From the IMG/VR virus record IMGVR_UViG_3300034683_000343, positions 1-21,940 of that record: a stretch of 21,940 nucleotides of DNA. One strand, 5' to 3'. A program made the translations under genes and the position numbers. Positions 2,577-14,090 of the stretch are shown one piece after another. This stretch comes from a virus. The notes under the pieces were generated by a model that worked only from the letters and a program-made list of their open reading frames with translations, had not been told where the DNA came from and ran no database searches. The number at the start of each line of letters is the position of its first letter. The first letter of the stretch is position 1.

Positions 2577-3102
2577 GGTCGCCGCCTTGCTCCCGCGCGA
2601 AAAAGAGGAAATATGCCGCCGGGCCCGATCCGGGGAGACGATTCGCGAAATAGCGGCAAGTTTTACTGTTTCGGAATCCACGATTTCCAAGTTTTTGCAT
2701 GAACGCGGGTTCGCACGACGGCACAGAACCGGACAGTCGCGTGCCAGACAATGGATGGGGAGCGACCAGCAGCGCCTCGAGGAGATGATGTCGCGCGGGA
2801 TGACATCGGAGGATATTGCCTTTGCGATGGATCGCCCGGTGGCAACGATACGACGAAAGATGCTTGAGACGCGAAAGCGCAGGGAAGGCGTTACGGATTT
2901 CGAGATCGGAAAGAAATACATGCTTCTGCAAAGGCAGCTGAGGAAGCTGGGAGTGGAAGACGAAATGCGGTGTCGGTATGAAGGTTCATGCCCTGGCTAT
3001 CGAGTGAAACACCATCTTTTCCGAAGCGTTTCTGGAGGATATCTGATCGCCATTTCCGATAGGCAGATGGATGACTATGAGATCAGGGAGGCGGGGAAAT
3101 GA
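2569..3102 (+). CDS. Helix-turn-helix DNA-binding protein
   Basis: A 177-aa protein (start MGRVAALLPREKEE). ATG 2569 is chosen because GGAGG sits 5 bases upstream and it overlaps the ssb stop, a typical coupled arrangement. A longer frame from 2527 lacks a good site. Residues about 22-48 form a clear helix-turn-helix (GETIREIAASFTVSESTISK), like those of resolvases and small terminases. A second helical repeat follows (about 68-93, MTSEDIAFAMDRPVATIRRK). The C-terminal part has two cysteines (CRYEGSC) and a HHLF motif. The specific role is unknown; an early regulator or replication accessory protein is likely from position. Confidence 0.75.
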   Translation: MGRVAALLPREKEEICRRARSGETIREIAASFTVSESTISKFLHERGFARRHRTGQSRARQWMGSDQQRLEEMMSRGMTSEDIAFAMDRPVATIRRKMLETRKRREGVTDFEIGKKYMLLQRQLRKLGVEDEMRCRYEGSCPGYRVKHHLFRSVSGGYLIAISDRQMDDYEIREAGK

Positions 3103-3296
3103 GCAGAAGAAGTGAAAGCATAAATGTATCTCAAACGCAGCGCCAGGCGGATCCGAAGATCGAATGGTTTCACAGGTACCACCAGGCCGTCAGATATCTT
3201 CTTGAGGTAGTCAAACCAGATACGGAACTTCCTTTCGCCGTTGGGGAAGCACTGTCCGACCTCAAAAGGATTCGCGACGAGGTGGAGGGGAATTAG
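3099..3296 (+). CDS. Small conserved-type phage protein whose 3' end is duplicated downstream
   Basis: A 65-aa protein overlapping the previous stop by ATGA. I recognise no domain. The C-terminal helix ends LKRIRDEVEGN. The DNA for the end of this helix (3257-3287) recurs exactly at 4951-4981, where the same reading would end in DEVES followed by a stop overlapping the next ATG. This points to an original gene order in which this gene directly preceded the MazZ-type gene at 4984. Confidence 0.65.
   Translation: MSRRSESINVSQTQRQADPKIEWFHRYHQAVRYLLEVVKPDTELPFAVGEALSDLKRIRDEVEGN
3257..3287 (+). repeat. 31-bp direct repeat, left copy
   Basis: A perfect 31-bp sequence beginning CGACCTCAAAAGG, identical to 4951-4981, with the copies 1694 bp apart. 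Bases immediately outside differ on both sides. It encodes DLKRIRDEVE at the end of the 65-aa protein and carries the GGTGGAG that serves as ribosome binding site for the gene at 3299. Confidence 0.95.
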
Positions 3297-3298
3297 CT

Positions 3299-3778
3299 AT
3301 GTGTGATCGGCTCTGGATCCCTTATTCAGGGTTTCAATATGACCTTTTTTCTCAGAAACCCGGGGAAGGTGGACAGAGGGATCTCGATCTCATAAAGAGC
3401 TGGGGGCTGGAATATCGGAAAACTCCAGAAGGCGAGCCGAACGTTGCAGATCTTTTGAACCTAGGAGATATCATATCCACGAACTACGGTCAGGCTCTGG
3501 AGCGCCGGTTCGGGCTGATTTTCGAGGTCCTGGAAACTCGTGGCCCATTTTACTTTAGTCCCATAGAACAGCCGGGTACGAAATATCCCAATTACAGCGC
3601 AATCTGTAGATCGACTGATGGATCTTATACCTGGAGTGAATTATGGTTCAACGAATTGGTTGCAGTCGGGAAAAGGATCTTGCATCTCTTCAAGAACAAT
3701 GATTCGGAGATTTTCGTGCTCGAAAAGCGAACGAGAGCATTTCAGAGGTCGTTATTCGGAACGGAGGTCCCAATATGA
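3299..3778 (+). CDS. Unknown 159-aa partner of the DruA-like protein
   Basis: This is the first gene in the repeat-flanked cassette. It is translated from the GGTGGAGGGG at the end of the left repeat and overlaps the next start by ATGA (3775-3778). The protein is soluble-looking with no signal peptide. It is Trp/Tyr/Phe-rich at the start (LWIPYSGFQYDLF) and has helical middle and C-terminal parts (FNELVAVGKRILHLF). I do not recognise a family. Strict coupling to the DUF4338 gene suggests the products act together. Confidence 0.7.
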   Translation: MCDRLWIPYSGFQYDLFSQKPGEGGQRDLDLIKSWGLEYRKTPEGEPNVADLLNLGDIISTNYGQALERRFGLIFEVLETRGPFYFSPIEQPGTKYPNYSAICRSTDGSYTWSELWFNELVAVGKRILHLFKNNDSEIFVLEKRTRAFQRSLFGTEVPI

Positions 3779-4950
3779 CTAACAATGTGCCATCGGCAGA
3801 GCACCTGAAGGTCGCTATTATCCGGTCTCTGCGCAAGCAGGGCTACAGGGTAGAGGACGGTATTATCCAAATGCCAGATAACCCTACGAAAGATGATTTT
3901 CGCGCTCTGAATGAACTTGCCCTGCAAAAGAAATTGGAAGTGTCCGGTCCGGGCGTCCGGCCTTATGAGGACAGGCTTATTCGATACATCGCCAATGGAA
4001 ACGAGGTGGTCCCCAGCGCGATACGCCCGAAGATCGTTGTCGTGAGGCAGGAATCCGAGCATGAGCTGCTTTTTCGTTACGCCTGTCTCCACTGGAGTAT
4101 CCCGGTTTCCGCAGGATATGGGAGAAGACTTCGGTTTCTCGTGTTCGATGAGAACAACGGTAAGCTGATTGGCTTATTCGGCTTAGGAGACCCAGTTTAC
4201 TCTATGCAAGCGCGAGACCGCTGGATTGGCTGGGACAAGGAAAACAAAGCACAGCGCCTGTATCACATAATGGATGCTTATGTACTTGGTGCTGTACCTC
4301 CATATTCATTCCTGCTGGGTGGAAAACTGATTGCAATGCTTGTATGCAGCAACGAGGTGCGACATGCATTCCGCAAAAAATACAACGGCAAAAAGTCTTT
4401 GATTAGACAGGAAACCCGGCCGCCTTACCTCGTACTGGTTACAACCACCTCCGCTCTTGGTCGCTCATCCATATACAACCGAATCCGCATTAATGGGCAC
4501 CAATATTGGACCAGTCTTGGATTCACACAAGGATCAGGTGAATTCCACTTTTCGAACGAAGTATATGGGGACATCAGGGCTTTCGTTGAAAAGAATTGTG
4601 AGCCTACGGCAAAACACGTCGCTTGGGGGACTGGTTTTCGAAACAAGCGCGAAGTGGTCCGCAAGTGTCTCTCGCATATTGGTCTCTCAGCCGATCTTAT
4701 TTACCATGGCATTCGCCGTGAGATATTTGCCGCACCCCTGGGGCGTGATGCAATACGGTTTTTGAAGGGAGAAGTTAAACGGCCGTGCTTCTATGACTGG
4801 CCGGCGTCGGATTTGTCGGAAGCCTTTAAGGAGAGATGGCTCATCGGTCGGTCGGAGAGAAAGCCCGAATATAGGGAATACACCCGTGAGGCGTATCGAC
4901 TTTGGCCATCCAAGACAAGAAATCAAAAGGAAGTTCCGTATCTGGTTTGA
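3775..4950 (+). CDS. druA: DUF4338 / Druantia DruA-like protein
   Basis: A 391-aa protein with the DUF4338 signature. GYGRRLRFLVFDENNGKLIG (about 115-134) is followed by the RDRWIGWD motif (148-155), then PPYSFLLGGKLIAMLV (175-190) and TTTSALGRSSIYNRIR (223-238). DruA is a component of type I Druantia anti-phage systems. Its biochemical activity is not established to my knowledge, and stand-alone relatives also occur. None of the other Druantia genes, in particular the large DruE helicase, is in this window. The gene ends immediately before the right repeat. A role in superinfection exclusion, or in mobilising the cassette itself, is inference. Family assignment is by motif recall and should be confirmed by profile search. 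Confidence 0.75.
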   Translation: MTNNVPSAEHLKVAIIRSLRKQGYRVEDGIIQMPDNPTKDDFRALNELALQKKLEVSGPGVRPYEDRLIRYIANGNEVVPSAIRPKIVVVRQESEHELLFRYACLHWSIPVSAGYGRRLRFLVFDENNGKLIGLFGLGDPVYSMQARDRWIGWDKENKAQRLYHIMDAYVLGAVPPYSFLLGGKLIAMLVCSNEVRHAFRKKYNGKKSLIRQETRPPYLVLVTTTSALGRSSIYNRIRINGHQYWTSLGFTQGSGEFHFSNEVYGDIRAFVEKNCEPTAKHVAWGTGFRNKREVVRKCLSHIGLSADLIYHGIRREIFAAPLGRDAIRFLKGEVKRPCFYDWPASDLSEAFKERWLIGRSERKPEYREYTREAYRLWPSKTRNQKEVPYLV

Positions 4951-4981
4951 CGACCTCAAAAGGATTCGCGACGAGGTGGAG
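4951..4981 (+). repeat. 31-bp direct repeat, right copy
   Basis: Identical to 3257-3287. It starts at the base after the DruA-like stop codon and supplies the AGGTGGAG ribosome binding site for ATG 4984. Read in the frame of the 65-aa gene it gives DLKRIRDEVE, then Ser and TGA (ATGA overlap with the next gene). Confidence 0.95.
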
Positions 4982-4983
4982 TC

Positions 4984-5421
4984 ATGAGTGAAAACAAAAC
5001 TGGGTCAACCACTCGGGAAATTATTCTTGAAGCGCTGGAAATGCGCCGAAACGCACACAAAAGCGGAGGTATGAATATGCTCGTCAACCAACAGAAAGAA
5101 GAGCCGGCGAATAATTTTGACGCCGGAAAACTCAGATACGACCTGATTCCGCCCGATGCTTTACGCGAACTCGCAAGAGTCTATACCGTAGGCGCTCAGA
5201 AATACGGGGATAGGAACTGGGAAAAAGGCATGAGCTGGGGAAGAGCTTTCGGAAGCCTCATGCGTCATTTGTGGGATTGGTTTTGGGGAGTTGAAGCCGA
5301 CGATGAAGACGGGTTACATCCTCTAGCTCACGGGGCCTTCAGAGTGTTCCAACTGCTTGCCTACTCGCTGCGGGGAATCGGGACCGACGACAGACCGAAA
5401 GGGGCTGGACCTGGTGAGTGA
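4984..5421 (+). CDS. dATP/dGTP diphosphohydrolase-like protein (MazZ / DUF5664 family)
   Basis: A 145-aa protein. The family core runs from about residue 45 to 130: KLRYDLIPPDALRELARVY, KYGDRNWEKGMSWG (73-86), RHLWDWFWG, and HPLAHGAFRVFQLLAY (112-127). The family belongs to the all-alpha NTP pyrophosphohydrolase (MazG/HisE-like) group. In cyanophage S-2L its member MazZ hydrolyses dGTP/dATP to feed 2-aminoadenine synthesis. Many phages carry it without the partner PurZ, and no PurZ is visible here, so nucleotide-pool control is the safer reading. The start at 4984 uses the repeat-borne binding site. An internal ATG at 5077 with GGAGG 7 bases upstream could give a shorter form that keeps the whole domain. 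Confidence 0.8.
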   Translation: MSENKTGSTTREIILEALEMRRNAHKSGGMNMLVNQQKEEPANNFDAGKLRYDLIPPDALRELARVYTVGAQKYGDRNWEKGMSWGRAFGSLMRHLWDWFWGVEADDEDGLHPLAHGAFRVFQLLAYSLRGIGTDDRPKGAGPGE

Positions 5422-5428
5422 GGAAAAG

Positions 5429-5638
5429 ATGAATGAGCATCCCGATCCCCAGAGACGCCGGTTCAGGTGCCGGCATTGGAGCATGGAGGAGGAAAGATGC
5501 CGCCTGCACATGCGGAGTTGTGAGATGTGTTTCATGTTCGATCGGATGAACGATTCGGAGTATAGAGCCCGAGCCAGGCGGTGGGGGCTGCAGGTACAGG
5601 AGCTGCTTTTCGAGGAGATGCAAAACAATGACTTGTGA
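5429..5638 (+). CDS. Small Cys/His-rich protein (probable zinc-binding)
   Basis: A 69-aa protein starting MNEHPDPQRRRF. GAGG lies 5 bases before ATG 5429; an in-frame GTG at 5414 is less likely. Residues about 12-37 contain CRHW, CRLH and CEMC, giving four Cys and two His that could bind a metal, followed by a helical tail (YRARARRWGLQVQELLFEE). The family is unknown. It lies in a run of short overlapping early genes. Confidence 0.65.
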   Translation: MNEHPDPQRRRFRCRHWSMEEERCRLHMRSCEMCFMFDRMNDSEYRARARRWGLQVQELLFEEMQNNDL

Positions 5639-5876
5639 GAAACACGAATACAGAGGATGGAATCTGGTTTTCGCCACGAACAGCAATATGTGGTTTACGG
5701 AGCTTGCTGGCGACACTGTCGTGCTTTATTTCGATCAACTACAGGTCAAGACCCTGGAAGATGCGAAAAAGAAAATAGACGAAATCGAAGACCGGCTCGA
5801 AAAAGAACATTTCGTTTCCAATCAGGAGTTGCGGGCGATAGGCAACATAGCTTTTCGGGATCAGCCCAGGCATTGA
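5628..5876 (+). CDS. Small hypothetical phage protein with predicted coiled segment
   Basis: An 82-aa protein whose ATG overlaps the preceding stop by 11 bases. The N-terminal part resembles a short beta-rich domain (YRGWNLVFATNSNMWF ... DTVVLYF). The remainder is a charged helix (LEDAKKKIDEIEDRLEKE). I do not recognise the family. No signal peptide or membrane segment is seen. Confidence 0.65.
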   Translation: MTCEKHEYRGWNLVFATNSNMWFTELAGDTVVLYFDQLQVKTLEDAKKKIDEIEDRLEKEHFVSNQELRAIGNIAFRDQPRH

Positions 5877-5884
5877 AGGGGGCG

Positions 5885-6124
5885 ATGGTTGTCATGAGCG
5901 AAACGGTTTTCGTGTTTTTCCTGGTCGCGTTGGGCTTCATGATCTTCGTCGTCGGGTTCCTTGTGGGGAATATCGCCGCAATGGATACCTCAAACATTCC
6001 TACGCCCAACTCGAGAGGCCACATTGAGCTCGCTGAAAAGCTCGAAATACCAATTCCGGAGCCGCCGAGGCCGCAAGTCAAGGGCGAGACAATTGAAGGA
6101 CCGATATCAGCTGATCCGCCTTAA
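5885..6124 (+). CDS. Small single-pass membrane protein
   Basis: A 79-aa protein from ATG 5885 (AAGGGGG just upstream). A longer open frame extends upstream but runs antiparallel in content to the previous gene and has no binding site. Residues about 8-29 (VFVFFLVALGFMIFVVGFLV) are one hydrophobic membrane segment, with a short N-terminus and a Pro/Glu-rich soluble tail (IPIPEPPRPQVKGE). Small one-pass proteins in early phage operons can be exclusion or accessory lysis proteins. Nothing here decides between these. Confidence 0.6.
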   Translation: MVVMSETVFVFFLVALGFMIFVVGFLVGNIAAMDTSNIPTPNSRGHIELAEKLEIPIPEPPRPQVKGETIEGPISADPP

Positions 6125-6148
6125 CCGGAACGGAAAGGGTGATCCTGA

Positions 6149-6859
6149 ATGTCTACTGCGTTCAAGGAAGCATGCGGGATAGCTGCGCGAGCCGAAAAAG
6201 CCGGCTGGTCGAACGCAGATCTTCAGCTTGCTGTGATGATGCAAGGCCGCGGTCAGAGTGTCAGGGAGATCTCTAAGGCCATCCGAAAGCCCGAGGAGCA
6301 GATCATGGAAGTGTTGGCCATCGCTACGAAGGAAGAAGATGCGAAACCGGAACCTGATGAACTGAAGTTGGACATAGGTGAAGGCAAAGCCAAACATGAC
6401 ATATCGGAAGTAGATGAATCATGGGTCATTGCCCGGATCGAGAACCTGAAAACTGAGGGGGCGACGTGGAAGGAGATCGCAAGGCATATCAATGACATGG
6501 GGATCACGACGGTGACGGGCAAACCATGGTCAAGTGCGAACCTTCTCCGATGGTACACCCAGCAGACGAGCACGGATCTAAAGCCTAAGCAGCGACCGAA
6601 AGATCCGCTGGGTGCCTACGAGGAGGTCCTCGAGGATGTCATGGAGATCTTGCAGGAAGAAGACGAGGAACAGGATTACGCCTTTTTGCGATCTGAATTC
6701 GGGTATGTATCCTTTTTGGTTCAGCTGACCCAGGAGGCCCGGAGGCTGAAGCGGCTTTCGCACAACGAGACCATAAAAACGGCCCTGTCCAGGATCACGG
6801 CGATGTGCCTCAAGGAATTGGCCCTGAGGTATGCCCAGGATATGGGCAGGGATCTGTGA
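6149..6859 (+). CDS. Helix-turn-helix protein of unknown role
   Basis: A 236-aa protein with AAGGGTGATC upstream, close to the full anti-SD complement. Two DNA-binding-like segments are visible. Residues about 22-57 (NADLQLAVMMQGRGQSVREI) precede an acidic linker. Residues about 93-132 (TEGATWKEIARHINDMGITT, then GKPWSSANLLRWY) resemble the helix-turn-helix found in recombinase domains of serine integrases. The C-terminal half is helical and acidic. No catalytic domain is attached, so it is more likely a regulator or replication accessory protein. Confidence 0.65.
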   Translation: MSTAFKEACGIAARAEKAGWSNADLQLAVMMQGRGQSVREISKAIRKPEEQIMEVLAIATKEEDAKPEPDELKLDIGEGKAKHDISEVDESWVIARIENLKTEGATWKEIARHINDMGITTVTGKPWSSANLLRWYTQQTSTDLKPKQRPKDPLGAYEEVLEDVMEILQEEDEEQDYAFLRSEFGYVSFLVQLTQEARRLKRLSHNETIKTALSRITAMCLKELALRYAQDMGRDL

Positions 6860-6873
6860 GAGGGGGAATCGGT

Positions 6874-7338
6874 ATGGGCTTGCCTGCCCACGTGAAACGT
6901 TTCGTTCTGTCTGAGGTCCGGTCATTGGAAGACTATCAGCGGGAAATAGAGTTCCGGAAGCGTCGTATCGACGAGCTCGAGCAGGAGAAAGACACCGTCA
7001 TTTTGCCTGATCGTCCCTTCGAGAGGGAACAAGTCCATGGCGGCAAGCCCGCCGATCCCGCCCAGCTGAAGGCGCTGTACCTGCAGGAGGAGATGGAGCA
7101 CCACCAGGAACGATATCGGATTCTGGCCAGAAAGGTGAAGATCCTGAACGAGGCGCTGGATATCCTGGACCCTGAACGACGCCATGTCCTGCTTTGGGCA
7201 TCCCAGCGAGAATCAGAACGCCCTACGGCAGAAATGTTTGCGCAGCGATTCTCTGTGTGCGAAAAGACCGTTTACAGGTGGCAGATCGACGCCGTGGAGC
7301 GGATTGCGCCGTTGTTATTGGGAGTTTTCGGGTTGTAG
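6874..7338 (+). CDS. ArpU/RinA-like late transcription regulator
   Basis: A 154-aa protein starting MGLPAHVKRFVLSEV. ATG 6874 is chosen because GAGGGGG lies upstream and the earlier frame runs inside the previous gene. Its size and order match the ArpU/RinA-type family: a long helical or coiled N-terminal part (EFRKRRIDELEQEKD ... LYLQEEMEHHQERYR), then a sigma70-region-4-like helix-turn-helix near the C-terminus (TAEMFAQRFSVCEKTVYRWQ). Members activate phage late genes. It is the last gene before a new promoter and is a reasonable candidate activator of the head operon. Assignment rests on architecture and position. Confidence 0.65.
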   Translation: MGLPAHVKRFVLSEVRSLEDYQREIEFRKRRIDELEQEKDTVILPDRPFEREQVHGGKPADPAQLKALYLQEEMEHHQERYRILARKVKILNEALDILDPERRHVLLWASQRESERPTAEMFAQRFSVCEKTVYRWQIDAVERIAPLLLGVFGL

Positions 7339-7351
7339 ATATTCACCCCCC

Positions 7352-7379
7352 TTGACATATATATATATTTCTATATACT
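7352..7379 (+). promoter_or_regulatory. Sigma70-type promoter of the accessory operon
   Basis: A perfect -35 TTGACA (7352-7357) and -10 TATACT (7374-7379) are separated by 16 bases of alternating TA sequence. The following gene starts at 7403 with GGGAGGTGG upstream. This is the best promoter match I found in the window and opens the AT-rich accessory block. Confidence 0.8.
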
Positions 7380-7402
7380 TATATGCAAGGGAGGTGGACA
7401 GA

Positions 7403-8572
7403 ATGGCATGGACGGAAGTTGAATGCAGGGAATGTGGAATGAAGTTTGAGGTCCAGATGTACGGACCTCACAAAGACAGAGAGTGGAGGGTTAAGAATCT
7501 CTATTGGCTTTGCGGTGAATGCAAGGCCAAAAAGCGAGAAGCAGAAGTAAAAGAAGCAGCCCAAAAAAGCCAGGAGATGGAATTGCCAGAATTACAGGGC
7601 AGCGAGAAACAGGTTCAGTGGGCGCTTAAAATCAGGTTACAAGCAATAAAGGAAATGGAGAAACAAATAGAACGTGATAAAAACATGGCCGATATTGATC
7701 TTGACGGAGATCCAGAAAAAGCAGAACGCTTGGTAAGACTCGGGATCCAAGAAGTACTTAAAGAGACACGAGCCTCCTGGTGGATAGATAGACGCGGTGA
7801 CGATTTTGGATTTATCGCTAGTAAAACGGGGAAAAAATTCCAGAATGCCCCCGAGATTACTGGAAAATATCTTGAAGCCGAGGCAGCAAAAGAAGCCAAG
7901 GCTGAAGCGACAGTAAGACCAACGGGAGCAGTAACAGATAACGTCGCCGAGATCGCATTTACAAATGACACAGTGACAATTTCCTTCCCGGAAAAAAGAG
8001 AGGATTTCAGGAAAACGGTGCGTGGTTTACGGTTTATATGGGATAGTGACAAGTTTCTGTGGAAGCGACGCATAAGCAACTTGAACGGCCCCGCCAAAGA
8101 TCGAATGGCCGAAGCCGGAAACAAAATCCTTTCAATTGGCGTCCCTGTCCGTATTTTCGACGAAGAAATTCGGAACGCCGCCATCAACGCTGAATTTCAA
8201 CACGAGCAGACCAGGTGGATCGTCGAGAATACAAATACTGGATGGTTCAGTATTGTTTGGTATCACAAAAATGAGGATTTTTACGAACAAGCCAGAAAGC
8301 TCCCTGGATCCAGATATGACAGAGATACCCGGAGCGTACTTGTACCACCGGAGAGTTTCCAAGAAGTTTTGGATTTTGCCGACATGTATAATTTCTGCTT
8401 GAGCGAAAAAGCTCAGGTAGTTGCGGATAAGGCAAGGGAAGATAAAGAGAAGAGCCTTATCGTGGATCCAGCGGAAGCGAAATCGATCAAAAACAAACCC
8501 AAATCGAAGCCGGAACCCCTCGAAATTCCGAAGGACGAAAATATAGATGAAGAGCTTCGAGACGACAACTGA
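7403..8572 (+). CDS. Zinc-ribbon protein with two HARP-like segments
   Basis: A 389-aa protein from ATG 7403 (GGGAGGTGG 5 to 9 bases upstream). Residues 8-40 hold a zinc ribbon (C8-x2-C11 and C37-x2-C40). A Lys/Glu-rich helical region follows. Residues about 190-250 (ISFPEKREDFRKTVRGL ... WDSDKFLWKRR) and about 281-336 (DFYEQARKLPGSRYDRDTRS) each look like a HARP-type unit, the small domain that accompanies SNF2 helicases such as SMARCAL1 and binds DNA. The tail is a basic/acidic linker. Its stop overlaps the start of the SNF2 helicase gene, so it is probably a separately encoded DNA-binding partner. HARP similarity is by pattern only. Confidence 0.65.
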   Translation: MAWTEVECRECGMKFEVQMYGPHKDREWRVKNLYWLCGECKAKKREAEVKEAAQKSQEMELPELQGSEKQVQWALKIRLQAIKEMEKQIERDKNMADIDLDGDPEKAERLVRLGIQEVLKETRASWWIDRRGDDFGFIASKTGKKFQNAPEITGKYLEAEAAKEAKAEATVRPTGAVTDNVAEIAFTNDTVTISFPEKREDFRKTVRGLRFIWDSDKFLWKRRISNLNGPAKDRMAEAGNKILSIGVPVRIFDEEIRNAAINAEFQHEQTRWIVENTNTGWFSIVWYHKNEDFYEQARKLPGSRYDRDTRSVLVPPESFQEVLDFADMYNFCLSEKAQVVADKAREDKEKSLIVDPAEAKSIKNKPKSKPEPLEIPKDENIDEELRDDN

Positions 8573-9962
8573 ATTGATGAGCCATCAGCGCGAGGCGGTT
8601 GCGAAGGTCCTCCCGTCTCGCGTTGGGGCCTTATTTATGGACATGGGGACCGGAAAGACGAGAACTGCGATAGAGCTGGTCAGGATTCGTAGTAAAAAGA
8701 TCAGTAAAGTCGTTTGGTTCTGTCCGGTCTCGCTCAAGGAAACAATCAGGTACGAAATACTGAAACATACTACCTGTACTGCGGAAGATATTTACGTGTT
8801 TAACAATAAGACTAAGAGTAACAGTATCCCAGACGCGCAATGGTATATCGTCGGCATCGAATCGATCAGCGCGAGCAACCGCGAAGCATGTGCTGCACAT
8901 AACCTGATAGATGGAAATTCCTTTGTGATTGTTGACGAGTCAAGCTATATAAAAGGACACAAGGCGAAACGTACCGAGAGGATCACTTTCTATGCTCGGA
9001 GTTGTCGATATAGACTCATTCTGACAGGTACGCCTATTTCGCAGGGGTACCAGGATCTTTTTGCGCAAATGAGGTTCCTGAGTCCAAAGATCCTTGGCTA
9101 CAATAGTTTCTATTCTTTTGCGGCCAATCACCTTGAGTATCACCCCAAATTTCATGGCATGATAGTCCGGGCACATAACACCGCGTACCTGGCAGCCAAA
9201 ATCAAGCCATACACGTACCAGGTTACAAAAAATGAATGTCTCGACCTCCCACCCAAGCTTTTTGACTCGCGGTATTTTTTCATGACCTCAGAACAGCGAA
9301 GAGCATATGAGCAGGCCAAGAACGAGATCTTGCTCGAATATGACCCGGATGATTGGAGCTCTATAGTGATATTCAGGCTCTTTTCCACGCTTCAGTCAAT
9401 CATTTGTGGCTTTTGGAATCGAGAGGGGAAACTGCTCACTTTTCCGCATAGGCGCATTGCAACGTGTATGGATGTGTTGCAGGCAATCCCCGACGGTGAA
9501 AAGGTAGTCATATGGATGAAATATAAAATGTCTGTGCAGGAAATCAAGGAGACGATACAGGGACTTTATGGGAGTCGTTCCGTAGCCGAGTTCCACGGAG
9601 GTAACCTGAAGGATAGAGACAAAGAGCTTGACAGGTTCCGGAACGACAAGCGAACTCGTTTTATGCTGGCGAACCAAAGTTGCGGTGGGCATGGGTTGAC
9701 CATCACGGAAGCTAGATATGCAATATTCTATGCAGATAGCTTCAAATACTCAGAACGCCTCCAGGCTGAGGATAGATGTCATAGGATAGGTCAGCAAGGG
9801 CCAGTGACATATATCTCGATACGGTGTCTGGACAGTATTGACGAGCGGATAGAAAGTGCCCTGATGAAAAAAGGAGATACTTTATCCATGTTCCGCAAGG
9901 AGGTCGATAAGGTGAAAAAGACTAATAAAGAAAAACTCCGAGAGTTGGTGAAATCGTTGTGA
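8547..9962 (+). CDS. SNF2-family DEAD-like helicase / DNA translocase
   Basis: A 471-aa two-lobed SF2 ATPase. Visible motifs are SHQREAVAKVL (Q-like), MGTGKT Walker A (33-38), VIVDESS motif II (127-133), LTGTP motif III (159-163), a second lobe with VVIWMKYK, HGGNLKDRDKELDRF and QSCGGHGLTIT, and motif VI AEDRCHRIGQQ (407-417) typical of SNF2 proteins. It is compact, without the large insertions or accessory domains of chromosomal remodellers, and its likely DNA-binding domains are on the preceding gene. The start overlaps that gene by 26 bases, with AAGGA 11 bases upstream. Related compact SNF2 helicases occur in phage replication regions. Here it is coupled to ibrA by GTGA overlap. Confidence 0.88.
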   Translation: MKSFETTTELMSHQREAVAKVLPSRVGALFMDMGTGKTRTAIELVRIRSKKISKVVWFCPVSLKETIRYEILKHTTCTAEDIYVFNNKTKSNSIPDAQWYIVGIESISASNREACAAHNLIDGNSFVIVDESSYIKGHKAKRTERITFYARSCRYRLILTGTPISQGYQDLFAQMRFLSPKILGYNSFYSFAANHLEYHPKFHGMIVRAHNTAYLAAKIKPYTYQVTKNECLDLPPKLFDSRYFFMTSEQRRAYEQAKNEILLEYDPDDWSSIVIFRLFSTLQSIICGFWNREGKLLTFPHRRIATCMDVLQAIPDGEKVVIWMKYKMSVQEIKETIQGLYGSRSVAEFHGGNLKDRDKELDRFRNDKRTRFMLANQSCGGHGLTITEARYAIFYADSFKYSERLQAEDRCHRIGQQGPVTYISIRCLDSIDERIESALMKKGDTLSMFRKEVDKVKKTNKEKLRELVKSL

Positions 9963-11176
9963 GCAAAACGTATCTAACCGAAAATGTCCTGACAGCCGCA
10001 AAGCGCCGAATTTCTCAGATCTATGACGAATTTGATCGGGTACTTGTGTCGTTTTCCGGCGGCAAGGACTCCACGGTTATGCTCGATCTCGTGATTCGGG
10101 AGGCAGAAAGACGGAGGCGCCTGCCTGTAGATGTGTTGTTTATCGACTGGGAAGCGCAGTACAAGGTCACAATCGAGCACGTCGAGGAAATGCTTGCAGA
10201 TTCAGTAAAAACGCGGGCCTGGTGGATATGCCTCCCTCTCACGACGGACAACGGGAGTTCGATGCACGAGCCGCTCTGGACCTCGTGGGACCCGGAGAAA
10301 CGCGACTTATGGGTGCGGGAGATGCCGGACCGTTCGGACGTCATTAAGGATTATGACGCCCTTCCATTCTATCGTTTTGGTATGTTTTTTGAAGAGTTTG
10401 TGCCGGAGTTTCAGAATTGGTTCGCCGGTGAGGATAAGTTGGCGTGTTTTGTTGGCCTCCGCGCTGATGAGAGCTTGAACAGGTTTAGGGCGATCAAGAA
10501 GAAACGACCCACGAGATACAATGGCTGGAGCTGGACGAGAATCATGGGTAAAAACGGCAACTCCGTCGCCGTGTATCCAATCTATGACTGGAAGGTACAG
10601 GATATATGGGCGTACATCGGGAAAAATAATCTCCCGTATAACAAAATTTATGATCGAATGTACTGGCTCGGAATCTCCCTGCACGAAATGCGGATAAACG
10701 AGCCCTACGGACCGGAAGCCCGGCGGGGGCTAGATAAATACCACCCACTTGAGCCAGAGACATGGAGTAAGATGGTCGAGCGGGTCGGTGGGGTAAATTT
10801 CGGTAAATTGTCGGGGCTCACAAGGCTTTTCGCACGCGGTAACAAGATAATCAGGCCGAAAACATTCAAAACTTGGAAAGACTATGCCATATTCCTGCTT
10901 GAGACATACCCACCAGAGGCGCGGGCGCATTATCTGCGCCGGATAAACGTGCTAATTAAATGGTGGCAGGACAACAGGCGAGAGGAATTGGATGCCGCCG
11001 GAGTGCCTGAAGGTGATATTTACGATGATCACGACAACCCTAAAAAGGAGTCCTGGCGGACGGTTTGCAGAGTCCTTCTTGAAAACGACTTCTTCTGCAC
11101 GAAACTATGTTTCGGGGTAAATAAGCGTGAGAAGGAGAAATTCGAGGCGCTGAAGGAAAAGTACAGGGATTTATAG
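9959..11176 (+). CDS. ibrA: IbrA-like PAPS-reductase-family protein (DUF3440)
   Basis: A 405-aa protein starting at GTG 9959, which overlaps the helicase stop (GTGA). The PP-loop SGGKDS (33-38) in VLVSFSGGKDSTVMLDL marks the ATP pyrophosphatase/PAPS reductase fold. This is followed by FIDWEAQ, GLRADESLNRFRAI and VYPIYDWKVQDIWAYI, typical of this superfamily. The C-terminal half (from about residue 250) matches the IbrA/DUF3440 layout. IbrA with IbrB was described as activating eib genes in E. coli strain ECOR-9 prophages; the chemical reaction is not established to my knowledge. It pairs with ibrB two genes downstream. Confidence 0.85.
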   Translation: MSKTYLTENVLTAAKRRISQIYDEFDRVLVSFSGGKDSTVMLDLVIREAERRRRLPVDVLFIDWEAQYKVTIEHVEEMLADSVKTRAWWICLPLTTDNGSSMHEPLWTSWDPEKRDLWVREMPDRSDVIKDYDALPFYRFGMFFEEFVPEFQNWFAGEDKLACFVGLRADESLNRFRAIKKKRPTRYNGWSWTRIMGKNGNSVAVYPIYDWKVQDIWAYIGKNNLPYNKIYDRMYWLGISLHEMRINEPYGPEARRGLDKYHPLEPETWSKMVERVGGVNFGKLSGLTRLFARGNKIIRPKTFKTWKDYAIFLLETYPPEARAHYLRRINVLIKWWQDNRREELDAAGVPEGDIYDDHDNPKKESWRTVCRVLLENDFFCTKLCFGVNKREKEKFEALKEKYRDL

Positions 11177-11189
11177 GGGGGCGTGATTG

Positions 11190-11636
11190 ATGAAAATGAT
11201 AGCCGAATATAAGGGGTACAAGATATTCCACATGACAGCCGAGCACGACCCGAAAGCGTTTTACGCCGAGATGGGGCATATCTTCGCGAGCCGGGAAATC
11301 CGTAAGGAACTCGATGGTTACCCGGTTGAAAACGAGCCTGGTAGGAAATGGGTAGTAGTCTATTATGGTGATGAGGTAGTAGGGTTTCGGAGTTATGACG
11401 TTAATGAAAAGGGTGAGGGGGTCTATTACGACGCATGGGTTCGGGAAGATTGCCGGAAGAATGGTCTTTACAGGCAGATGCTTGATCTCGCGGAAAGCGA
11501 GCTTAAGAAATCTTTCGGAGTATCAGTCATCAAGGCAATCGGAAACTCAACCTCGGCCCCGATTTTGAAGAAAAAAGGCTTCCACACTGTTAAGATGCGC
11601 GGGAAATTCCACGTAATGGAGAAGGTGTTGAAATGA
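11190..11636 (+). CDS. GNAT-family acetyltransferase
   Basis: A 148-aa protein from ATG 11190, with GGGGGG 8 bases upstream. An in-frame TTG at 11187 is not preferred. The GNAT fold is suggested by strand pairs WVVVYYGDEVVGFRSYD, the acetyl-CoA loop region VREDCRKNGLYRQMLDLAES (motif A R-x2-G-x form, about 86-105), and a C-terminal NSTSAPILKKKGF typical of motif B. It sits between ibrA and ibrB and overlaps ibrB by ATGA, so it belongs to the same system. The substrate is unknown; a protein, a small molecule or a modified nucleobase are all possible. Confidence 0.78.
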   Translation: MKMIAEYKGYKIFHMTAEHDPKAFYAEMGHIFASREIRKELDGYPVENEPGRKWVVVYYGDEVVGFRSYDVNEKGEGVYYDAWVREDCRKNGLYRQMLDLAESELKKSFGVSVIKAIGNSTSAPILKKKGFHTVKMRGKFHVMEKVLK

Positions 11637-12283
11637 CTGAATCGTTATTCTCGGCATTAGTAGACCTGATCGTATCGAAAGCGGAGGAGGTTTTTAAACA
11701 GCTCGACGATCTTGATCAAGAGAGCAAGATCGAGGCTGTCAACAGGATACGGCAATCACTCCACGAGTATAGCCCCTTCCAGGAGGATCCAGTGGATTGT
11801 GTGATATGGGTTCCTGCCGATAAAGTACAGGGGAATGACTATAACCCTAACGCCGTGGCGCCGCCGGAGATGCGGCTTCTGGAGCACAGTATAAAAATAG
11901 ATGGGTTCACGCAGCCCATTGTGGCATACCCGGAGAATGAGCACTATACCGTTGTTGATGGGTTCCATCGCACCAGGGTAGCAAAGGAATCCAGCGTGGT
12001 CAAAAAGCATCTTAAAGGCCATGTCCCCGTTGTAATAGTCAGGGGCGCACAGGCTGACCGCAAGAACCGGATGGCGGCAACAATCCGGCATAACAGGGCG
12101 CGTGGAGTGCATGGTGTAACGCCGATGATTGATCTGGTGGCATTATTGATACGAGACGGATGGAGCGACGAAGATGTAGCCAAAGAGCTTGGGATGGATG
12201 CCGACGAGGTGCTCCGTTTCAAACAGCATGCCGGACTGCCGGAGCTTTTTAAGAACCATCAATTTTCGCGGGCATGGGAGTGA
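11633..12283 (+). CDS. ibrB: IbrB-like ParB/Srx-fold protein
   Basis: A 216-aa protein. A helical N-terminal region (1-55) is followed by the ParB-like core: VPADKVQGNDYNPNAVAPPE (60-79), SIKIDGFTQPIVAY, and the VVDGFHR motif (107-113), where DGxHR is the signature also seen in ParB N-terminal and DNA phosphorothioation proteins. RHNRARGVHG (152-161) and a C-terminal helix-turn-helix (WSDEDVAKELGMDADEVLRF, 177-196) complete it. This order matches IbrB. The ParB/Srx fold can bind or hydrolyse nucleotides and can act on DNA. It overlaps the GNAT gene by 4 bases. Confidence 0.85.
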   Translation: MTESLFSALVDLIVSKAEEVFKQLDDLDQESKIEAVNRIRQSLHEYSPFQEDPVDCVIWVPADKVQGNDYNPNAVAPPEMRLLEHSIKIDGFTQPIVAYPENEHYTVVDGFHRTRVAKESSVVKKHLKGHVPVVIVRGAQADRKNRMAATIRHNRARGVHGVTPMIDLVALLIRDGWSDEDVAKELGMDADEVLRFKQHAGLPELFKNHQFSRAWE

Positions 12284-12288
12284 TTAAA

Positions 12289-12435
12289 ATGACAGAAAAA
12301 GGCAAAACAAGAAAAATTATAATCAACTGTCCGGAAAATCTAGCCTGGAAGTTTAAAGAAAAAGTAGCAAGAGACAAGACCAACATGACGGATTTCCTTA
12401 TCCAAAAGATTAAAGAATATGTAGAAGGCGAATAG
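12289..12435 (+). CDS. Ribbon-helix-helix (Arc/CopG-type) protein
   Basis: A 48-aa protein. GGGAGTG is 5 bases upstream of ATG 12289, and the gene starts 5 bases after the ibrB stop. The sequence has the RHH form: a short basic strand (RKIIINCPENL), helix 1 (WKFKEKVARD), a turn (KTNM), and helix 2 (TDFLIQKIKEYVEG). Such dimers bind operators with the strand pair. It ends the low-GC operon directly before a second promoter flanked by a dyad, so auto- or downstream regulation is likely but inferred. Confidence 0.75.
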   Translation: MTEKGKTRKIIINCPENLAWKFKEKVARDKTNMTDFLIQKIKEYVEGE

Positions 12436-12454
12436 GGATAATGTTTCTGTTCCG

Positions 12455-12503
12455 CAATGCTTGACGACGTTTAAAAGTAATTCTAAAATAGTGTCTAGCA
12501 TTG
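12455..12503. repeat. Inverted repeat flanking the promoter; possible operator
   Basis: CAATGCT (12455-12461) and AGCATTG (12497-12503) are perfect inverted copies 35 bases apart. One touches the -35 box and the other lies just past the expected transcription start. Symmetric half-sites placed this way fit a repressor operator, for which the RHH protein encoded directly upstream is the natural candidate. Confidence 0.5.
12461..12489 (+). promoter_or_regulatory. Sigma70-type promoter upstream of the 145-aa gene
   Basis: -35 TTGACG (12461-12466) and -10 TAAAAT (12484-12489) with a 17-base spacer, close to consensus. The gene at 12516 follows with TTGGAGGTG as ribosome binding site. Confidence 0.72.
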
Positions 12504-12515
12504 GAGGTGCGATAA

Positions 12516-12953
12516 ATGTCAAAAAAAGCGACTGCTCCCAGAATCGCCGAACAATCCGCGAAATTCTATTCCGAGGTTTTCTCTAGTTTGAATGCCGGTA
12601 TGGAATATATGGGGAACGCGTTCCCGTTACTCTACAAGCGTACTTTGCTTTCTTTAAAGAACACGTTAACTCGAGCGGAATTAAGTCTTCTGATCGACGT
12701 CTTTAACGGTACATTCCTCACTCCGGATTTGGCAGGTCAACACTTGGAAATACAGGTGGAAGACGGAATTAGGCTAGAGGGCCTTGATGAAAAATGGAAG
12801 GTCGATAGCGGAACCTTGCTGGGTAAAATACGGGCCCTGAATATTTTTGAACGTGCTTGTTTGGAAATATGGGCGAAAGGATTTTGGAACAAAGATCAAA
12901 ATATGGATGAATGGCTTGATCTCCTTTGTGATCAAAGTTCCAGCATTACATAG
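12516..12953 (+). CDS. Unknown 145-aa phage protein
   Basis: A well-supported gene with its own promoter and GGAGGTG site, starting MSKKATAPRIAEQSAKFY. It appears mainly helical (FYSEVFSSLNAGMEYMGNAF, RAELSLLIDVFNG) with an acidic C-terminus (MDEWLDLLCDQ). No signal peptide or certain membrane segment is seen. I do not recognise the family. The 3' end overlaps the convergent recombinase gene by 22 bases. Its separate promoter, next to a small RHH gene, suggests lysogenic or regulated expression. Confidence 0.7.
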   Translation: MSKKATAPRIAEQSAKFYSEVFSSLNAGMEYMGNAFPLLYKRTLLSLKNTLTRAELSLLIDVFNGTFLTPDLAGQHLEIQVEDGIRLEGLDEKWKVDSGTLLGKIRALNIFERACLEIWAKGFWNKDQNMDEWLDLLCDQSSSIT

Positions 12954-13507
12954 ATCTGATCCAGATCATCCCTCAGAATCCCCATATACCGAAGTGTTTC
13001 CGTTTGTGAGGCGTGGTTCAGCAGCTTTTGCAGCCTGCTGATGTCCACGCCCTTCTTGTAGGCGTGATAGCAGAAGGTCTTCCGCATCGTGTGTGTCCCT
13101 ATCCTCTCGCGTATCCCCACCTCTTTCGCCGCATCGGAGATTATCCGGTGCGCTTGCCTGGTCGTAAGCGGTCCTTTCCCCTTCCTCGATGGAAACAGAG
13201 GATCTCCCTTTGCCGGACGCCGAGCGTTCAGGTATTCCGACAGGGCGCTTCTGGCCGGCGTGTTCAGTGGAAAATCTTTTACCTTTCCCGTCTTCTTTTC
13301 CCGCATCCGTATCCGGTCGGTTACCTTCAGTCTTCTGCTCCCGGGATCGAGGACGTCCTCCACCCTGAGGCTTAGAAGATCCGAGATCCTCAAGCCCGAG
13401 TTGATCCCCAGGACGAACAAGGCGTAATCCCTGAGACTTCGCTTTTTTAATATTCTCTTGATGTCCTCGAGGTCAGTCTTCTTGCGGATCGGCTCGACTA
13501 TCTCCAT
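12932..13507 (-). CDS. Minimal tyrosine recombinase / integrase
   Basis: A 191-aa protein that is essentially only the catalytic domain of the tyrosine recombinase family. Visible catalytic residues are R40 (SGLRISDL), K75 (KKTGKVK), H139 and R142 (HTMRKTF), H165 (LLNHAS) and nucleophile Y174 (TLRYMGI). The N-terminal arm-binding and core-binding domains of lambda-type integrases (usually about 300-400 aa in total) are missing, a layout shared with FimB/FimE-type enzymes and with short recombinases of some phages. It starts at ATG 13507; GAGGAG lies 12 bases upstream on its strand, rather far. It could integrate the phage, invert DNA or resolve multimers. It transcribes against the surrounding genes and faces a long non-coding region. 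Confidence 0.88.
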   Translation of the reverse strand: MEIVEPIRKKTDLEDIKRILKKRSLRDYALFVLGINSGLRISDLLSLRVEDVLDPGSRRLKVTDRIRMREKKTGKVKDFPLNTPARSALSEYLNARRPAKGDPLFPSRKGKGPLTTRQAHRIISDAAKEVGIRERIGTHTMRKTFCYHAYKKGVDISRLQKLLNHASQTETLRYMGILRDDLDQIYVMLEL

Positions 13508-13643
13508 GTTGTTTCAGTGCTCCTCTTTAATTGAAATGGATTGATTCAAAAAATATTTCATAACCCTGGATTTTGTACAGGCATTTCTCCCTTCAGATAT
13601 GCCGGAATGACTGTTGCTGTCTGGCTTTCCGCACGCCCGGCGC

Positions 13644-13674
13644 GAATGTCCTAGAACGTCATTGAAAGACATTC
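13644..13674. repeat. Inverted repeat near the recombinase gene
   Basis: Perfect 7-bp arms GAATGTC and GACATTC with 17 bases between them. The geometry fits binding by a dimeric protein and is a candidate recombinase or regulator site, but no function is shown. Confidence 0.4.
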
Positions 13675-13736
13675 AGAGGGCGCCTGGTTCGAGAATACTA
13701 AAGGCGAGATGGTTTTGAACGGTTGTGTACAAAAGA

Positions 13737-13758
13737 TGTCCGATTTCTGTCCGTTTTC
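13737..13758 (+). repeat. Short tandem repeat of 11 bp
   Basis: TGTCCGATTTC is followed directly by TGTCCGTTTTC (10 of 11 identical). Tandem repeats of this size beside a recombinase gene can be arm-type or operator sites; here it is only an observation. Confidence 0.45.
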
Positions 13759-13810
13759 TTGTGCCCGAGAATGATTCAATGGTATCGGGGTATAACGCCC
13801 CCTTGAGGAT

Positions 13811-13852
13811 GGAGCTCCGCGGGCAACGCCTCCCCCGCGGGGCTCCTTCTTT
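13811..13852 (+). terminator. Strong GC hairpin, probable terminator
   Basis: A 13-bp stem, GGAGCTCCGCGGG (13811-13823) with CCCGCGGGGCTCC (13834-13846), contains one G-U pair and closes a 10-base loop. The run after it is TTCTTTCT, pyrimidine-rich but not a pure T tract. It would separate transcription entering from the left from the packaging operon. It could instead be a structured processing or protein-binding site. Confidence 0.55.
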
Positions 13853-13869
13853 CTACGAACCTGGCTTTG

Positions 13870-14090
13870 TTATGTGTATGTAAACGGTCGGACCTGTTCA
13901 TCGAGGACGGGACCAGGGGAGAACGCCCCAACATGCGAGGGGTGGGAGCGCGGGGCGTATATAAAAGCGCGAAAAGCGGGTCCTTCTAAGGCTTTGCGGC
14001 CCAGGGGTCGGCGAAAGCCGCGGTGGTCCTCTAGCCACAGGGGGGCTGAAAAAGGGTTTCCGGTTCCGATTTTTGGCACTTTTTGAGGTG
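13870..14090 (+). other. GC-rich, foldable leader of the packaging operon; candidate cos region
   Basis: Short hairpins include CGGC-GAAA-GCCG (14009-14020, a GNRA-type tetraloop) and GTGG(T)...(G)CCAC (14023-14038). A GC-rich stretch with GCGC repeats flanks TATATAAAA (about 13949-13973). The lambda-type terminase genes start directly downstream, so cos is expected here. No cohesive-end sequence can be identified by inspection. Confidence 0.35.

Follow-up and report, generated by a model that had tools for sequence, protein, structure and literature searches.

A phage operon linking a P1-SNF2 pair to IbrA and IbrB, a candidate mobile nucleic-acid-modification module

The viral record IMGVR_UViG_3300034683_000343 of IMG/VR carries an operon of six plus-strand genes that encode, in order, a protein here called P1, an SNF2-family translocase, IbrA, a GNAT acyltransferase, IbrB and a small ribbon-helix-helix (RHH)-like protein. 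The operon lies between replication genes on the left and terminase and further head genes on the right. The complete viral record of 21,940 bases, possibly a piece of a larger phage genome, was analysed and is referred to as the window. Two questions arise from this locus, namely whether the genes form a unit and what such a unit might do. The original prediction, made from the sequence of the window, had proposed an undescribed modification, defence or gene-control module, and had named as alternatives a chance assembly or an SNF2 pair that is an ordinary replication helicase independent of ibrA/B.

Co-occurrence of P1, SNF2, IbrA and IbrB

Gene neighbourhoods were surveyed with three baits: IbrA, SNF2 alone, and c4, a protein from a sister architecture. 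For P1 and Csf2, whose alignments were too divergent for collection scans, the survey was indirect, and a single-protein scan with GNAT returned near kin only. The IbrA survey covered viral contigs, bacterial genomes and phage records and yielded 180 loci. IbrB accompanied IbrA in 175 of them; counted within 3 kb on the same strand, SNF2 relatives were present in about 46, P1 in 17, and GNAT, which proved to be one recurring subfamily, in about 49. Unbiased clustering of the neighbours put IbrB, SNF2, GNAT and P1 ahead of all other partners of IbrA. The window-type module was also present in two bacterial genomes, both times in a prophage (L115 and L118). The RHH gene was found in just 5 loci, all near kin, and is outside the conserved module. 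The gene combination that had been singled out as suggestive is thus borne out for P1, SNF2, IbrA, GNAT and IbrB, which recur together in unrelated phages, but not for RHH. These five genes make up one coherent unit and need no longer be treated one by one as "hypothetical" or "auxiliary metabolic" genes.

The SNF2 bait gave 79 loci. At an identity of at least 35%, IbrA and IbrB were present in 32/32 loci and P1 in 29/32 (a few of the 32 duplicate contigs already seen), whereas all three were missing from each of the 47 loci at 30-34% identity. Among the three close loci lacking P1, two are on contigs that start inside SNF2, and the third is L207. Every SNF2 of this clade that turned up was accompanied by IbrA and IbrB. 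We regard the genetic linkage of P1-SNF2, IbrA and IbrB as real, with very little doubt, and not as a chance assembly; the proposed survey of IbrA/IbrB neighbourhoods for SNF2, HARP-like and GNAT genes did find the co-occurrence elsewhere.

The same counts bear on the helicase alternative, in which P1-SNF2 would serve ordinary phage replication or fork repair with IbrAB (IbrA and IbrB) as a neighbouring passenger. Many phages do carry SNF2 genes (1752 records), and the repeats of P1 look like a domain for DNA-structure recognition. However, this alternative is contradicted by the co-occurrence of 32/32 against 0/47, and the pairing persists while IbrA lineages change. We consider it very improbable.

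Within the module, pairwise distances over 42 loci correlate strongly for P1 and SNF2 (0.71) and for IbrA and IbrB (0.72), while the cross pairs reach about 0.2. On a tree of 146 IbrA sequences (FastTree, some long branches), the P1-SNF2 label has to change ten times, and well-supported branches force at least eight of these changes. The low cross-correlation and the label changes indicate that P1-SNF2 and IbrA-IbrB were combined more than once, showing that they are two sub-modules, repeatedly re-paired. In four loci (L190, L193, L194 and L196) the P1-like domain and SNF2 form one open reading frame. The fusions and the P1-SNF2 correlation strengthen the earlier suggestion that the SNF2 translocase works with a separate DNA-binding partner.

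Exchange of the partners of IbrA-IbrB

Nine loci of the SNF2 survey revealed a second architecture without GNAT. Here, c4 separates SNF2 from IbrA, and IbrB is followed by a methyltransferase that bears a DPPW motif and another conserved motif, GDLCMGRGLVG. Neither c4 nor the DPPW methyltransferase occurs in the first 180 loci or in 78 terminase-selected loci. With c4 as the bait, 45 loci were obtained, with IbrA in 44, IbrB in 43, the DPPW methyltransferase in 44 and SNF2 in 32. GNAT often joins the IbrA-IbrB core as a third member, a place that the methyltransferase and c4 take in the second architecture. In five loci (L366, L369, L374, L378 and L380) the second architecture is rearranged: a methyltransferase-like gene lies upstream of c4 and does not follow IbrB.

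The c4 loci also exposed a connection with type IV-B CRISPR that is not visible from the window sequence alone. SNF2 occurs without csf genes in 32 of the 45 loci and csf genes without SNF2 in 10; no locus has both, and 3 have neither. The csf genes match the NCBI Csf1, Csf2 and Csf3 models, at scores under the curated cut-offs, as well as solved Csf2 and Cas7 chains. In total, csf profiles match 11 sister loci; the window has no csf gene, and P1-SNF2 is found in that position. A small separate CysH-like gene is present in 10 of the 11 csf loci and absent from all remaining loci, as judged by score comparison, which was used in place of a CysH-like profile that had merged with IbrA (274 matches). 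The GNAT-type core takes part as well, sitting between csf2 and csf3 in L044, and Halomontanus rarus carries csf1, csf2, csf3, IbrA, IbrB, GNAT and CysH on one strand. Cultured carriers of the linkage are Halomontanus rarus (strain KZCA124), Natrinema thermotolerans (strain A29), Actinarchaeum halophilum and Rhodovastum atsumiense plasmids, both archaeal and proteobacterial. These loci show that a type IV-B Csf/CysH gene set can take the place of P1-SNF2. Fisher p-values, being uncorrected for relatedness, were given no weight.

Known type IV-B systems comprise Csf1, Csf2, Csf3, Cas11 and a CysH-like protein. Sister loci of the window place the IbrA-IbrB core in or beside such Csf/CysH operons, and both systems have an enzyme of the phosphoadenosine phosphosulfate (PAPS) reductase fold that lacks the classical catalytic cysteine. 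A review of type IV systems describes the role of CasCysH as unknown, notes that its catalytic cysteine is absent, and concludes that any DNA modification would not be by phosphorothioation (PMC8175902). The mutually exclusive pairing joins two puzzles, IbrAB and the type IV-B CysH-like protein, and predicts that both gene sets serve the same nucleic-acid chemistry. Our literature search, subscription papers aside, found no description of a P1-SNF2-IbrAB linkage or of IbrAB beside type IV-B.

What might such different partners have in common? Beside one ATP-using enzyme pair, a DNA-engaging motor is exchanged for a CRISPR-type ribonucleoprotein, and an acetyltransferase for a methyltransferase; the simplest common denominator is nucleic-acid chemistry. 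Replacement of GNAT by the DPPW methyltransferase is what one would expect if the enzyme in that place adds a final group. The explanation that we prefer, and which we judge about evenly poised between true and false, is that the operon is a mobile nucleic-acid-modification module with interchangeable DNA-engaging cassettes, placed in a variable cargo slot of the phage; its chemistry is what we infer. More tentatively, and with more doubt than belief, IbrA-IbrB may supply the chemistry of a mobile DNA-modification system that is widespread and can exchange its targeting part, using either the P1-SNF2 translocase or a type IV-B ribonucleoprotein. If true, type IV-B would be a platform that directs nucleic-acid modification, not cleavage. 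The benefit would likely be the marking of phage or plasmid DNA, or altered host gene expression, in conflict with the host or rival elements.

Several points weigh against a modification module. To our knowledge, no IbrAB carrier has been found to contain a modified base or nucleotide, and activation of prophage genes is the sole IbrAB phenotype we know of. In 100 of the 180 IbrA loci, IbrB is present with no SNF2, GNAT or P1 relative near, so the core may function independently of DNA remodelling. In one phage record of 176 kb, MT835469, a relative of P1 occurs with neither IbrA nor a close SNF2, so P1 by itself is not strictly tied to the module. Classic type IV-B loci of Skermania phage SPI1, Thermococcus nautili and Rhodococcus jostii RHA1 carry csf and CysH genes, with no IbrAB within 6-7 kb, so the csf-IbrAB link is true of a subset. 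Moreover, the methyltransferase could be a self-protection enzyme outside IbrAB chemistry, and the chemistry could act on RNA, or on a protein bound to nucleic acid, instead of DNA. Among the classic loci, SPI1 carries csf2, csf3 and the CysH-like gene (Orf42-44) at about 5843-9476 of KR011061.1 (L386), all annotated as hypothetical.

Protein families and candidate chemistry

IbrA of the window consists of a PAPS_reduct domain followed by DUF3440, with scores well above the cut-offs (PF01507, 70 bits against 22.5; PF11922, 95.4 bits against 25), and retains the ATP-binding SGGKDS motif of a full ATP PP-loop. Its closest solved sequences are CysD and FAD synthase, with PAPS reductases next. The structural model (predicted local distance difference test, pLDDT, 83) gave fold Z scores of about 15, tied among FAD synthase, APS reductase and CysD. 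No cysteine is invariant across 178 IbrA sequences, and the best candidate, C380, gives way to L, A, G or M in about 28 of them. IbrA lacks the conserved catalytic C-terminal cysteine that is the hallmark of PAPS reductase (CysH) and scores under the NCBIfam cut-offs. These sequence features argue for ATP-dependent activation over sulfonucleotide reduction, with an external sulfur donor being possible. Accounts of IbrA-family proteins in phages as PAPS reductases, and so as sulfur-metabolism genes, are probably wrong. Hundreds of phages and plasmids carry IbrA/IbrB, as do common laboratory bacteria, among them Escherichia coli K-12 (ybdN/ybdM).

The absence of an invariant cysteine makes Dnd-type sulfur chemistry unlikely, which bears on the resemblance to DNA sulfur modification drawn earlier. 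Under this alternative, the operon would carry out Dnd- or Ssp-type modification with a cysteine desulfurase from the host. IbrA does belong to the PAPS-reductase/DndC fold family; IbrB, like DndB, belongs to the ParB superfamily, and a host can provide desulfurases (PMC12839542). The Dnd, Ssp and type 4 BREX phosphorothioation systems likewise have a PP-loop PAPS-reductase-type enzyme, together with a ParB-type protein in Dnd. However, IbrA scores 29 bits against the DndC model TIGR03183, far under the cut-off of 290.4, and the window has no desulfurase and no DndD/E or SspB/C partner, with GNAT or the methyltransferase found instead. The earlier remark that no Dnd/Ssp set is visible stands, the likeness itself is weakened, and we hold this explanation to be the least probable of those considered, with hardly any weight.

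IbrB carries DGFHR and IRHNRARG motifs in nearly all of 173 sequences, with H112 in 173/173. Its match to PF02195 is just under the cut-off (24.7 against 26.3), and its C-terminal stretch reads as a helix-turn-helix. In Mycobacterium phage Gaia (L017) and Pseudoalteromonas phage XCL1123 (L018), IbrB is fused to or preceded by an ectoine synthase/ParB multidomain (cupin-like) segment. Small open reading frames beside IbrA in eight annotated phages had been guessed to be GNAT, and were rejected on alignment.

The families above suggest how a modification module might work. IbrA would activate a substrate using ATP, by adenylation and with no catalytic cysteine of its own; IbrB, with its ParB/sulfiredoxin fold and putative DNA-binding helix-turn-helix, would position or power the reaction on DNA; and GNAT, or the methyltransferase, would attach the final group. 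P1-SNF2 would be a split remodeller of branched DNA, opening or patrolling DNA for the core to act, and the Csf ribonucleoprotein would take its part in the sister systems.

The main rival to modification is gene control. Here, IbrA/IbrB and P1-SNF2, the latter removing or remodelling a protein on DNA, would switch on phage or host genes, with any chemistry acting on a protein regulator and GNAT acetylating that regulator. The literature yielded no description of the biochemical function of IbrA/IbrB; they are annotated as co-activators of prophage gene expression, and the helix-turn-helix-like C-terminus of IbrB would suit such a role. Known pairs in E. coli and phages are described alone, whereas the window pair, a clear and adjacent member of both families, is coupled to P1-SNF2 and GNAT. 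In E. coli, ybdN/ybdM adjoin the LysR regulator YbdO/CitR, which represses them, and deletion of ybdO raises ybdN/ybdM and many cys sulfur-assimilation genes together (PMC9068703). The adjacency and the repression favour gene control; the joint rise is a possible hint of sulfur or PAPS involvement, although confounded. However, neither the exchange of P1-SNF2 for a Csf ribonucleoprotein and CysH nor that of GNAT for a methyltransferase is predicted by gene control, which we rate as unlikely but deserving serious weight.

P1 comprises an N-terminal zinc ribbon, supported by cysteine columns in the alignment, an AcrIF23-like helical segment (residues about 58-162) and two repeats that resemble one another (about 178-253 and 269-338). 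The repeats match the XPB damage-recognition domain with Z scores of 5.0-5.9 over 54-57 residues (root-mean-square deviation 1.8-2.5), values too low to stand out on their own. The HARP domain of SMARCAL1 is reported to have the same fold as this XPB domain. The HARP Pfam family was absent among the listed matches of 30 P1 members, with no sequence match either. A Foldseek search of P1 against the PDB gave nothing at E < 0.001; the SMARCAL1 HARP structure was not listed and may still resemble P1. Matches of RecA to the P1 profile were dropped as probable compositional noise. The label "HARP-like" given to the first gene has gained modest structural support from the XPB domain, but no Pfam or sequence match; it is plausible, although unproven.

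The SNF2 protein scores above the cut-offs for PF00176 (69.1 bits) and PF00271 (43.4 bits). As in the HARP-SNF2 fork remodellers (SMARCAL1, UvsW), an SNF2 motor is combined with a partner, sometimes in one chain, and the two repeats of P1 modestly resemble the XPB damage-recognition domain; unlike them, the module is mostly encoded by two genes and has the added zinc ribbon and AcrIF23-like segment. Dpd 7-deazaguanine DNA modification offers another parallel, having a ParB-like ATPase and an SNF2-type helicase (DpdB, DpdE) with a base-modifying enzyme; the module, however, is without a TGT-like DpdA or DpdC.

Could the operon instead act directly against competing phages or the immunity of the host? 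It might, for instance, sense invading DNA or remodel it, and IbrAB would then serve as the signal or effector. The window SNF2 partly matches the PADLOC models of ZorD and DpdE, at scores under the NCBIfam curated cut-offs (ZorD 41 against 1500 bits, DpdE 22 against 500, DrmD_b 16.7 against 950). The P1 segment is common to the anti-CRISPR AcrIF23 (profile E 2.6e-5; structural match with 26% identity over 68 residues). Alternation with type IV-B CRISPR genes, and a HicA-type toxin found in the same slot in the relative L292, also favour defence or counter-defence. Against this, no nuclease or toxin domain is recognised in the conserved module, the AcrIF23 homology is limited to one helical segment of P1, and PADLOC has no model for P1, GNAT or IbrB. 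We consider direct defence rather unlikely. The broad wording of the original prediction, an undescribed modification, defence or gene-control module, fits all these findings.

Operon layout and the cargo slot

The six genes overlap or nearly touch, in the order first described: P1/SNF2 overlap by 26 nucleotides, SNF2/IbrA and GNAT/IbrB by 4 each, and gaps of 13 and 5 nucleotides separate IbrA from GNAT and IbrB from the RHH gene. The near-consensus promoter that had been pointed out before the operon is also kept in a 95%-identical relative (L002).

Table 1. Features of the operon in the window.
Feature	Position	Strand	Evidence
Promoter, TTGACA-16 nt-TATACT (nt, nucleotides)	7352..7379	+	11/12 consensus bases; best site of the region; upstream of the operon
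P1	7403..8572	+	phrog_16123; AlphaFold2 pLDDT 91
SNF2-family translocase	8547..9962	+	PF00176 and PF00271 above cut-off; phrog_62 1e-99
IbrA, PP-loop ATP-pyrophosphatase fold with DUF3440	9959..11176 (GTG start)	+	PF11922 and PF01507 above cut-off; phrog_2302 1.8e-93
GNAT acyltransferase, IbrAB-associated subfamily	11190..11636	+	PF00583 above cut-off
IbrB, ParB/sulfiredoxin fold	11633..12283	+	phrog_2159 1.3e-71; DGFHR and IRHNRARG motifs
Small RHH-like protein	12289..12435	+	ParG-like match below cut-off; adjoins the operon

A low guanine-plus-cytosine (GC) content of 33-43%, based on sampled 60-base rows, had been taken as a sign of separate acquisition. The operon block is lower than the remainder of the window (mean 47.6% against 56.6%), but the difference is milder than claimed; its 60-base rows range from 32 to 65%, and just 29% of them are at or below 43%. 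Both flanks are also low (51.8% at 3000-7351 and 49.4% at 12436-14000), so that low GC is not specific to the operon and tells little by itself. Separate acquisition is better evidenced by the relative L292, whose alignment with the window breaks off at base 7332 and resumes at 13043 (86.7% identity over 8.9 kb). Between the aligned parts (5970-8002), L292 has a gene for a 356-residue protein, the HicA-like toxin gene and a gene for a 189-residue protein on the other strand. The DNA match on both sides with other genes inside indicates that the operon sits in a variable cargo slot.

Three further genes of the window were recorded. A 191-residue tyrosine recombinase (12932-13507, minus strand) lies right before the terminase genes, a position kept in many relatives found through terminase. 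A 145-residue gene (12516-12953, plus strand) has its own promoter-like site at 12461-12489 and occurs only in module-carrying near kin. In the early region, a gene of the dATP/dGTP pyrophosphohydrolase family (4984-5421, plus strand; phrog_801) may have a role in the nucleotide pool.

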